Origin: an uncultured Gammaproteobacteria bacterium
GTDB lineage: Bacteria; Pseudomonadota; Gammaproteobacteria; Pseudomonadales; Pseudohongiellaceae
Direction: 5' to 3'
Assembly: GCA_913061515.1 (NCBI GenBank)
Contig: CAJXSF010000013.1
Coordinates: forward strand, 1 to 64,000
DNA length: 64,000 nt
Shown here piece by piece: positions 40,243-46,863 of this stretch. The notes below the pieces were generated by a model. It did not search any database, was not told the DNA's origin, and saw only the letters and a program-made list of their open reading frames with translations. The position numbers and the translations under genes were made by a program. Within the stretch, counting starts at the first letter, position 1. Each line of letters begins with the position of its first letter.

Positions 40243-40311
40243 TCTTCTTATTACCTTCAATAAATCATTTGGAGTTTTAATAAAGAGCAATTCTAGCTTG
40301 GCTGCAAATAG

Positions 40312-40320
40312 TTATCCACA
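40312..40320 (+). promoter_or_regulatory. DnaA box (exact consensus)
   Basis: TTATCCACA matches the consensus DnaA box exactly. It lies 70 bases upstream of the dnaA GTG and may also mediate autoregulation of dnaA. Confidence 0.8.
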
Positions 40321-40450
40321 CACAATACATTCTAAAGCGATGTTTTTCGAAAAAATTAATTATTTATATTTCAATAACTTATAACAACAAACCCTGTAAA
40401 ACACAGTGCAAATATCACCATAAAAACCGCCATTGTGTAAAAATATAAGC

Positions 40451-40459
40451 TGTGGATAA
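40451..40459 (-). promoter_or_regulatory. DnaA box (exact consensus, reverse)
   Basis: TGTGGATAA is the reverse complement of the consensus box. It lies on the rpmH side of the AT-rich stretch. Confidence 0.8.
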
Positions 40460-40550
40460 GATGTTATTAACAACGTATAAAACGTAACTCACTGTATTTT
40501 TTACAATATCTGCTAGCGAAGATATTTCCTTGTTTTTCTTCTCTAAATAA

Positions 40551-40579
40551 TTGCATTAAGCGCTTGAAACATCTAGAAT
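40551..40579 (+). promoter_or_regulatory. Likely promoter of rpmH
   Basis: TTGCAT (40551-40556) and TAGAAT (40574-40579) are separated by 17 bases, each matching the sigma-70 consensus well. Transcription would start near 40586, about 50 bases before rpmH. Confidence 0.6.
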
Positions 40580-40635
40580 TCGCGCTCGGTTTAAATCCGG
40601 CAAATACACTTTTAAGAAACATTCTGGACATCATC

Positions 40636-40770
40636 ATGAAAAGAACCTTTCAGCCAAGCAGAATTAAGCGCGCTCGTACACACGGTTTCCGTGCACGTAT
40701 GGCGACTAAAGGCGGCCGTCTTGTAATCAAGCGTCGTCGTGCATGCGGTCGAGCCAAGTTAACAGCCTAA
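40636..40770 (+). CDS. rpmH: Ribosomal protein L34
   Basis: The 44-residue protein is a small basic component of the 50S subunit. [22 protein letters not shown] and [19 protein letters not shown] are the standard L34 sequence, with a lysine/arginine content typical of the family. I trimmed the start to the ATG at 40636. The rnpA gene follows at 40812, the usual rpmH-rnpA pair. Residues ACGRAKLTA replace the common RAKGRKRLS-type end, normal variation. Confidence 0.98.
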
Positions 40771-43151: not shown

Positions 43152-44552
43152 ATGACTCTAAATACTGACAGCGACACTATTTGCGCAATCGCGACACCAC
43201 CTGGTAGGGGTGGTGTCGGCGTCCTTAGGGTTTCAGGCCCTTTATCGAAACACATCGCCAATACCCTTCTGCATTTCACTCCCGACCCACGACACGCCCA
43301 TTACAGCAAAATCTACGACTCAAATTCTGAACTGATCGATCAAGGAATCGTAATTTATTTTCCGGGCCCAAACTCGTTCACTGGCGAAGATGTTCTTGAA
43401 CTGCAAGGTCATGGTGGCTCCTACATTCTCGATCGCCTTCTTAAAGAAGTCTTATTATTAGGCCCACGCCTGGCTCGTCCAGGTGAGTTTTCCGAACGCG
43501 CCTTTATAAACGGCAAGATGGATCTTACTCAGGCAGAGGCCATAGCAGATTTAATCGAATCCAGTAGTGAAGAGGCCGCTCGTAGCGCAATAAGAACTTT
43601 GCAAGGTGATTTCTCAAAACTGATTTCATCTTTAAGCCAGTCTATTGTCGATCTTAGAGTTTACATTGAAGCCTCCATCGATTTTGCTGAAGAGGAAATT
43701 GATTTTCTAACAGAAGGCAAGACAGCTCAAACTCTCGAATCGATTCTTATAGAGCTTGATTCAATACTAGCGCAGGCAAAGCAGGGCGCAATTTTACGAG
43801 AAGGTATGTCTGTGGTGATCGCAGGTAAACCCAATGCTGGCAAGTCTAGTCTTCTTAATGCGCTTGCTGGAAAAGACAGTGCCATCGTTACCGATATCGC
43901 TGGGACGACCAGAGATACCCTTGTAGAGCAAATCAATGTCGACGGCATGCCTGTACATATAACCGACACAGCAGGGCTCAGACAGAGCGATGATGTTGTT
44001 GAAAAGGAAGGGATACGCCGTGCAATAAAGGCTATAAGTGATGCAGATAGGATCATGCTTGTACTAGATGCATCCCAAGATGACGTTGAGCTTTCAATGT
44101 TGCCGGCGTTCTTAGCCTCTCTAGGACTAGATGACTTATTCGCCCAAGCGAACATCAATCGCCTTAGTATTGTTCGAAATAAAATTGATCTCATTGATCA
44201 GGACAGTTCGGTACGCACTCTGCATTCTGACAATATGGCCATCACCGAAATCTCGCTTTCAGCAAAGTCTCAACAAGGCTTAGAGCTATTAAGACAGCAT
44301 TTAAAAGACTGTATGGGCTTCTCACCAAGCGGGGAAGGCGGATTCATCGCCAGACGCAGACATCTTGATGCTTTAAAAAGAACAAAGACGTTTTTAGAAC
44401 AAGCCAAAGCGCAACTTGAAGGGCAACGAGAAGGCGAAATAGTTGCCGAAGATTTGAAGCAAGCCCACCGTTGTTTAGGTGAAATCACTGGTGAATTCAC
44501 AACAGATGACCTATTAGGCAAAATTTTCTCTAGTTTTTGTGTCGGAAAATAA
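43152..44552 (+). CDS. mnmE: tRNA uridine modification GTPase MnmE
   Basis: MnmE works with MnmG to add the carboxymethylaminomethyl group to wobble uridine 34 of certain tRNAs. The 466-residue protein has an N-terminal folate-binding domain with TPPGRGGVGVLRVSG near 13, a helical domain and an inserted G domain with GKPNAGKSSLLNAL near 228, DIAGTTRDT near 252 and DTAGLR near 275. It ends FCVGK, matching the conserved FCIGK that carries the catalytic cysteine. MnmG is encoded 400 bases downstream. Confidence 0.98.
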   Translation: MTLNTDSDTICAIATPPGRGGVGVLRVSGPLSKHIANTLLHFTPDPRHAHYSKIYDSNSELIDQGIVIYFPGPNSFTGEDVLELQGHGGSYILDRLLKEVLLLGPRLARPGEFSERAFINGKMDLTQAEAIADLIESSSEEAARSAIRTLQGDFSKLISSLSQSIVDLRVYIEASIDFAEEEIDFLTEGKTAQTLESILIELDSILAQAKQGAILREGMSVVIAGKPNAGKSSLLNALAGKDSAIVTDIAGTTRDTLVEQINVDGMPVHITDTAGLRQSDDVVEKEGIRRAIKAISDADRIMLVLDASQDDVELSMLPAFLASLGLDDLFAQANINRLSIVRNKIDLIDQDSSVRTLHSDNMAITEISLSAKSQQGLELLRQHLKDCMGFSPSGEGGFIARRRHLDALKRTKTFLEQAKAQLEGQREGEIVAEDLKQAHRCLGEITGEFTTDDLLGKIFSSFCVGK

Positions 44553-44961
44553 GTTTTTTTCCACTGTATAAGCCGGTGACAAGCTGTGTATAAAGCTGTC
44601 TATATCTAGTAACAATCGGTGGATGGAATTTAGGCCAAAATTTGCTTATGTATAACTTCGCTTGTTCTCCACAGATTGCAAAGCTGTTCTAAAGACCTTA
44701 AACATGTTTCGCCCACTGACTTATGTATAGCTTAACTTGTTGTAATTAAAGGGTAATAATAGGTTCTCCACAGAAAATAGCCTTACCATTAATAACATCA
44801 GTATTAATATCTTTAAGGTTTTATTAACTATTTATAACTTAATACTAATTAAATCTTTAAAAAGCATTTCACGTTTTCTTCAATAAAATTAAATACTTCA
44901 AATTTAGATTCTAAGGCTTATACTTATCGACCCTTTGTATTTGCCCAATGACAGGTGTTTC
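44553..44961. other. Candidate second origin region between mnmE and mnmG
   Basis: 409 bases without a gene. Near-match DnaA boxes are TGTGTATAA (44585-44593), TTCTCCACA (44665-44673) and TTCTCCACA (44764-44772), each one mismatch from consensus. A 22-base repeat with three differences occurs at 44645-44666 and 44720-44741, spaced 75 bases. From about 44780 to 44910 the sequence is almost wholly A and T. This is the setting of oriC in E. coli, next to mnmG. A TATACT at 44919-44924 may be the mnmG -10. Confidence 0.65.
44645..44741. repeat. 22-base direct repeat in the mnmG-upstream region
   Basis: The copies CTTATGTATAACTTCGCTTG plus TT (44645-44666) and CTTATGTATAGCTTAACTTG plus TT (44720-44741) differ at three positions. 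The 75-base offset is close to seven helical turns. They flank the TTCTCCACA near-boxes. Confidence 0.7.
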
Positions 44962-46863
44962 ATGGATTTTTCAAAAAAGTACGATGTGATTGTCGTCGGT
45001 GGTGGCCATGCCGGCACTGAAGCGGCTTTGGCAGCTGCGCGCATGGGCGTCAGTACGATTTTGATTACCCATAACATCGAAACTTTAGGCCAAATGTCCT
45101 GCAACCCAGCAATTGGTGGGATTGGTAAAACCCATTTGGTGAAAGAGATCGATGCCTTGGGTGGCGCCATGGCTAGGGCCACAGATCGGGCGGGCATCCA
45201 ATTTCGCGTTTTGAATAGCAGCAAAGGGCCAGCAGTGCGCGCCACACGTGCGCAAGCTGACCGAGTATTGTACAAAGCCGCTATTCGAGAAATGCTCGAA
45301 AACCAAGAAAATCTCGATATTTTTCAACAGGCTGTCGATGACCTGATCGTTGAGAACGAGGCGGTGGCAGGGGTAGTGACACAGATGGGGCTGAAGTTTT
45401 GTGCGCCCAATGTTGTATTGACTACAGGCACGTTCTTGGGCGGAAAAATACATATCGGAATGGAAAATAGCTCAGGTGGTCGTGCAGGAGATCCGCCCTC
45501 GATCGCCCTTGCGCAAAGACTTCGTGCATTGCCATTTCGAGTCGCTCGTTTGAAAACGGGCACGCCTCCTCGTATCGATGCTAGATCTGTTGATTTCTCG
45601 GTCATGCAAGCGCAGGCCGGTGACACCCCGATTCCTGTGATGTCTTATATCGGCAGTGCCGACGAACACCCGGAACAAGTCAATTGCTACATCACCTCGA
45701 CAAATGAGCGTTGCCACGAAATTATTCGCGGTGGTTTGGACCGCTCACCGATGTATACCGGGGTGATCGAAGGTCTAGGCCCACGCTATTGCCCGTCCAT
45801 TGAAGACAAAGTCATGCGCTTTGCTGATAAGGCGTCGCACCAGATTTTTGTTGAGCCAGAAGGGCTGAACACCCATGAACTCTATCCGAACGGAATCTCA
45901 ACGAGCTTGCCTTTTGATGTACAGATAGAACTCGTGCGTCAGATTAAAGGCTTTGAAAACGCCCATATCACTCGTCCTGGATATGCTATCGAATACGATT
46001 TTTTCGATCCACGAGACCTAAACTACTCTTTGGAAACGAAATTTATAAAAGGCCTATATTTCGCTGGCCAGATCAACGGCACCACAGGCTATGAAGAGGC
46101 TGGGGCCCAAGGCTTACTAGCAGGTTTAAATGCGGCCTTGTCAGCACAAGGCAAACCAAGTTGGTGCCCGCGTCGCGATCAAGCCTATATCGGTGTGTTA
46201 GTGGATGACTTGATCACCTTAGGGACTAATGAGCCTTACCGAATGTTCACTAGCCGAGCGGAATACCGCTTATTGCTGCGTGAAGATAACGCAGATCTTC
46301 GACTAACACCCATTGGCCGTGAGTTAGGCTTGATCGATGATCATCGTTGGGCGTTATTCAGCGAAAAAAGCCAACAGATCGACAATGAGCTAAAGCGACT
46401 GAAGAAAGTTTGGATTCAAGCAGACTCAGAGCCGGCCAAAAAGATTAACGCGCTTTTAGACAAACCAATAGGCCGTGAATACTGCCTAGCTGATCTGCTT
46501 GCTCGCCCTGAAATTAAGTACGATGCCTTACAGCAAGCTGTCGCAGTCGAAGGGGAGCAGGGCAATGAGCTTCCTAGCGATGTCAAAGAACAAGTCGAGA
46601 TTCAAATAAAATACAAAGGCTATATCGATAGGCAGGAAGAAGATATTCAGAAGCTGCGCCGTCAAGAAAACACGGAGTTGCCCCATGATTTCGATTACCA
46701 GCAAATGCAGGGGCTCTCAAACGAGTTAAAACAGAAACTCGAGAGTGTCCGCCCAGAGAATATAGCGCGGGCATCAAGAATCCCAGGGATGACCCCAGCG
46801 GCTGTGTCGCTTTTGTTGATTTATCTTAAGAAATATCAAGCTGTACGTGCAAAAACCGCATGA
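44962..46863 (+). CDS. mnmG: tRNA uridine modification protein MnmG (GidA)
   Basis: The FAD-dependent partner of MnmE in wobble uridine modification. The 633-residue protein has the Rossmann [19 protein letters not shown] near 15, [20 protein letters not shown] near 53, [12 protein letters not shown] near 155, the FAD-binding [23 protein letters not shown] near 368 and the C-terminal helical domain. I trimmed the start to the ATG at 44962, giving [15 protein letters not shown]. Its stop overlaps the rsmG ATG (ATGA), so the two are coupled. Confidence 0.98.

Follow-up and report, generated by a model that had tools for sequence, protein, structure and literature searches.

Known chromosomal origins and the setting of the mnmE-mnmG gap

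The closest described counterparts of the region reported here are the chromosomal origins of Escherichia coli K-12, Vibrio cholerae and Pseudomonas. In E. coli, oriC occupies the mnmG-mioC intergenic region with its DNA unwinding element (DUE) on the mnmG side, and, with mnmG on the plus strand, its R4 DnaA box (minus strand) lies at -356 and its R1 box (plus strand) at -176 from the mnmG start. The V. cholerae origin oriI is located between gidA and mioC and contains DnaA boxes, an AT-rich region and an IHF site (PMC2865523). In Vibrio loci mnmE and mnmG are separated by about 1 kb that includes mioC, a slot that is syntenic with, and equivalent to, the gap described below. The experimentally known Pseudomonas oriC adjoins dnaA (PMC3642087).

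The window analysed here, a stretch of 64,000 nucleotides from an uncultured member of the Pseudohongiellaceae, is part of contig C13 in a draft genome of 3.23 Mb, whose nearest named relative by MnmG is a Pseudohongiella metagenome-assembled genome (78% identity). The genes gyrB-recF-dnaN-dnaA are on the minus strand and are followed on the plus strand by rpmH-rnpA-yidD-yidC-mnmE, the gap, and mnmG-rsmG-parA-parB-atp; the gap, between the end of mnmE at 44552 and the start of mnmG at 44962, spans 44553–44961. From the comparisons presented below, this gap is very probably the chromosomal replication origin (oriC), of the E. coli and Vibrio type, at which replication would fire; its orientation (plus) would be that of E. 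coli, with the DUE on the mnmG side, and its other neighbour is mnmE rather than mioC. We note that positions 1–48 of the window are a Nextera adapter remnant (GTCTCGTGGGCTCGGAGATGTGTATAAGAGACAG) at the contig start, and that TTATACACA is repeated near the ends of many contigs of this genome; because adapter remnants at contig ends inflate genome-wide counts of DnaA boxes, such counting was dropped as a criterion.

Organization and conservation of the gap

The first-pass annotation of this DNA had described three DnaA boxes with one mismatch, and these are present relative to TTATCCACA at 44585–44593 (minus strand), 44665–44673 (plus) and 44764–44772 (plus), where 0.12 are expected and none of 2000 dinucleotide shuffles reaches three. 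When the usual E. coli consensus TTATNCACA is used, the R4-like box at 44585 (TTATACACA) is perfect, and a fourth box with one mismatch, TTATACATA, emerges at 44647–44655 (minus) and is kept in most congeners. Both plus-strand boxes read TTCTCCACA; the position of that at 44665 is conserved, and that at 44764 is R1-like and adjoins the AT-rich tract. The R4-like and R1-like boxes lie at -377 and -198 from the mnmG start and face each other at 179 bp, compared to 180 bp in E. coli, a match in box-to-box geometry that had been overlooked. The inner boxes depart from the E. coli arrangement, being 117 and 99 bp from the R1-like box, whereas the E. coli R2 box is at 106 bp. An IHF-like site (44733–44745, minus) with two mismatches to WATCARNNNNTTR ends 18 bp before the R1-like box, and the E. 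coli IHF match, likewise with two mismatches, is also at -18 from R1. The gap and E. coli oriC are both detected by one sequence model. A motif unrelated to DnaA boxes, AAGAnCTTAAAC (44692–44704), has columns that are invariant in 11 genus sequences, and across the genus its conservation equals that of the DnaA boxes.

The AT-richest 150 bp of the window (44772–44921, 80% AT) is the putative DNA unwinding element. The AT tract and the boxes are situated beside mnmG as in E. coli oriC, as had been proposed, although the tract is AT-rich rather than AT-only, its longest run of A and T alone being 14 bases. A predicted and conserved sigma70-like mnmG promoter, TTCAAA-16-TATACT (44897–44924, plus), is a consensus match only. 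By eye, no clean run of three N-A-N units (DnaA-trio) is seen within 16 bp of the R1-like box, and E. coli itself scores weakly for this element (PMC8287927).

By analogy with initiation in E. coli (PMC8407004, PMC4285127), DnaA would bind the two outermost boxes, R4-like and R1-like, together with the weaker boxes between them, and IHF, of which the alpha subunit is encoded in this genome, would bind and bend the DNA at the site 18 bp inside the R1-like box. Assembly of DnaA would then melt the AT-rich stretch at 44772–44921 on the mnmG side, where the helicase would be loaded and from which both forks would start.

Sequestration through GATC sites, Dam and SeqA serves to regulate enteric and Vibrio origins, and an origin as such can do without it. 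The gap contains no GATC, compared to 15 in 420 bp of E. coli and the GATC enrichment in Vibrio, and a SeqA gene was not found in the window's genome, although a Dam homologue is present (contig C39, 3981–4757); sequestration of the enteric type is therefore unlikely at the gap.

The gap is 380–425 bp long in 11 genus members, and both the DnaA boxes and the AT tract are kept in relatives. The blocks of invariant columns comprise the boxes, AAGAnCTTAAAC, a CACCAT motif after R1 and the mnmG promoter, and a 145-bp core, also overlooked previously, is constant in length in eight of the members and has lost a single base in the other three. Identity to the nearest relative is 0.86 over the gap, compared to 0.49 at the fourfold sites in five genes nearby. 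A 22-bp direct repeat at 75-base spacing (44645–44666 and 44720–44741, both plus), which formed part of the original argument, is real, with 19 of 22 positions identical and about 1 in 1000 shuffles as good. It matches, however, at just 12 of 22 positions in the closest relative, whose MnmG is 95% identical, and at 7–12 of 22 in ten congeners, so that we regard this repeat as recent or accidental, and it is ruled out as an iteron. The earlier suggestion that the origin reading would fall if neither repeats nor near-boxes were conserved is thus half borne out, as the repeat is not conserved and the boxes and their spacing are.

Homology to proven origins

Facing boxes (minus, then plus) at 177–183 bp are found in 50 of 121 mnmG-upstream regions, including those of Vibrio, Aeromonas, Alteromonas and Pectobacterium, compared to a mean of 0.1 in shuffles. 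When an nhmmer profile of the genus gap is searched against 2.6 Mb of DNA belonging to other genera, the matches of clear significance are immediately upstream of mnmG, among them those in Halomonas, Alteromonas, Photobacterium and Aeromonas. A model of 145 positions built from the genus (model R1) matches the genome to which the window belongs at one place only, the mnmE-mnmG gap. Of the 13 other genus members, 12 are likewise matched once each, and in the remaining one, a genome that is 76% complete, mnmG was not found either. A second model of 137 positions (model R2), built from 54 matches in other genera, at mnmG as well as at dnaA, and with the window's genus excluded, recognises a module at 44649–44782 (plus) with 71.9 bits (E 9.7e-20), the next-best place in the genome scoring 14.6 bits. 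Model R2 also matches the annotated K-12 oriC (21.4 bits, E 1.8e-4 in 1 Mb), at 2301–2416 of the E. coli locus L188 and inside the annotated oriC at 2245–2476, as well as the mnmG-upstream regions of Vibrio, Aeromonas and Pectobacterium. Homology, geometry and uniqueness in the genome thus strongly support the initial proposal that the gap is an origin of the E. coli type. That it is a 'second' origin does not hold, as the module occurs once in the genome, in this gap, and the dnaA-rpmH gap has two DnaA boxes and no module.

Two addresses of the module in the order

Model R2 has matches in 130 of 145 genomes of the order, and addresses were assigned from mnmG and dnaA coordinates. Among the matches listed, 84 are 125–417 bp upstream of mnmG on the mnmG strand, and 45 are 46–564 bp upstream of dnaA on the strand opposite to dnaA. 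Counted by genome, and again among the matches listed, the module is solely at mnmG in 73 and solely at dnaA in 34, while 11 of the 119 genomes in which a match could be placed have it at both. These counts are approximate, since the start of dnaA was in some cases moved outward manually to accommodate partial protein matches, and a second copy may go unseen in draft contigs. The same type of module is present at dnaA, the address of the Pseudomonas origin, in many genomes of the order, whereas in the window it is at mnmG. Because model R1, built from the genus only, already showed two addresses (48 matches at mnmG, 26 at dnaA and three more across contig starts, with both in G055, G063 and G162), this picture is independent of the training of model R2 on both sites. 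Genome G107, which is outside the R2 training set, is matched at both sites (E 4e-12 and 2e-10). Weak R2 matches at both addresses are seen in genomes of clade f21, which is among those with both sites and is probably Pseudomonadaceae. Its GyrB matches PDB chain 7ptf, which we take to be from P. aeruginosa, a lead rather than a test.

The modules at the two addresses are alike in several respects. A weight matrix of the 61 bp preceding R1, made from mnmG-site modules with R1 itself excluded, gives dnaA-site modules an average of +16, compared to -34 when these modules are shuffled and -36 at 450 perfect DnaA boxes elsewhere in the same loci; the dnaA-site modules had been chosen by the sequence model and high scores are partly expected, although location played no part in the choice. 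In 26 of 40 mnmG-site and 17 of 27 dnaA-site modules, a match to the IHF consensus with no more than one mismatch has its end exactly 18 bp ahead of R1. A DnaA tree of 79 genomes requires about 6 changes of address, at least three of which are forced by well-supported branches, compared to a mean above 20 when shuffled, and the clade containing the window is uniformly of the mnmG type. The orientation of the module is identical at both addresses, which suggests that switching involves a directly duplicated segment and subsequent loss, and not an inversion.

On these sequence comparisons we somewhat favor the view that a single homologous oriC module, with mnmE-mnmG and dnaA-rpmH as its alternative addresses, underlies both the E. 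coli-type and the Pseudomonas-type origins, and that there have been several switches between these addresses in the order; at least 11 sampled genomes with both would be living intermediates, perhaps with two usable origins at least 4 kb apart. No paper stating this idea was found in a literature search that covered mainly open-access journals.

In Porticoccus sp. W117 (L055, 5451–9238) the segment rnpA-yidC-mnmE, between dnaA and mnmG, is inverted, and its breakpoints coincide with the two origin addresses. Module matches at neither standard distance are present in G170 (C12, 66378–66508), G139 (C19, 168218–168320) and G150 (C43, 41570–41688), at 1.7 kb from mnmG or, upstream of dnaA, at about 5 kb, and have perhaps been split from the neighboring gene by inserted DNA or rearrangement.

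The dnaA-rpmH gap and alternative readings

The dnaA-rpmH gap (40291–40636) lacks the oriC module, the best match to model R2 in an unfiltered search being 9.0 bits, and contains two perfect DnaA boxes. One, near the dnaA start (40312–40320, plus), is conserved throughout the genus, and the other (40451–40459, minus) is also conserved and faces it at 139 bp. Two facing perfect boxes fit autoregulation of dnaA, as one perfect box is kept in the E. coli dnaA-rpmH gap, about 42 kb from oriC. This gap is most likely a promoter region under DnaA autoregulation, in which two boxes have been retained, and may be a remnant of the other origin address.

GC skew was rejected as a means of deciding between the two gaps, since sites 4.3 kb apart are inseparable and the contrast between address types is weak. 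Local cumulative minima are spread from -20 kb to +25 kb of mnmG in the relatives examined, and fall within 2.5 kb of mnmG only in the window's genome (G000), G001 and G032. The fourfold skew of yidC and mnmE is lagging-like in mnmG-type genomes (mean difference -0.18), but four dnaA-type genomes are also mildly negative (-0.08), and a gene-specific effect is therefore possible.

If the origin were instead in the dnaA-rpmH gap, as in Pseudomonas where this address is proven (PMC3642087), the mnmE-mnmG gap would be an inactive relic or a site for DnaA titration or mnmG regulation. The two dnaA-rpmH boxes are perfect and strictly conserved, whereas in the mnmE-mnmG gap neither the R1-like boxes (TTCTCCACA) nor the IHF site, with its two mismatches, are perfect, and 34 genomes of the order carry the module at dnaA only. 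We nonetheless consider this placement improbable. Apart from the missing module, the stretch around the second box is 0.98 identical in the nearest relative but most of the DNA between the boxes has drifted to 0.63, compared to the 0.86 of the mnmE-mnmG gap; the most unstable 50 bp is also less unstable (-50.7 kcal/mol, compared to -46.9 in the mnmE-mnmG gap), and by its sequence the genus-wide conservation of the latter is unlike that of a relic.

A bipartite or dual origin, in which the DnaA clusters of both gaps cooperate or either can fire, would account for the conservation of both clusters throughout the genus, and has parallels in the bipartite origins known to flank dnaA (PMC4285127) and in the genomes of the order with the full module at both sites. 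The separation of 4.3 kb exceeds that of described bipartite origins, which reaches about 2 kb (PMC4285127), and with the module at one site only in this genome we regard such an arrangement as very improbable; the likening of two origin-like regions 4 kb apart to a pseudomonad pair, made at first pass, applies well to those other genomes of the order. It is scarcely credible that the mnmE-mnmG gap is simply a DnaA-regulated mnmG promoter region that resembles an origin by chance, for although a conserved promoter-like sequence does lie just upstream of mnmG, the homology to a proven E. coli oriC, the uniqueness in the genome, the spacing statistics and a constraint far exceeding that of a promoter all argue otherwise.

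Implications

The placement of oriC in the mnmE-mnmG gap locates the replication origin of a little-studied gammaproteobacterium, and for the window it sets right the common expectation that the origin is marked by the DnaA boxes next to dnaA. The gap is an ordinary kind of element, and it is the use of two addresses across the order that is of specialist interest. If there is indeed one module with two addresses, and some genomes have both, then natural intermediates would allow the movement of a bacterial origin to be tested directly, and the traditional split into E. coli-type and Pseudomonas-type origins would need restating.
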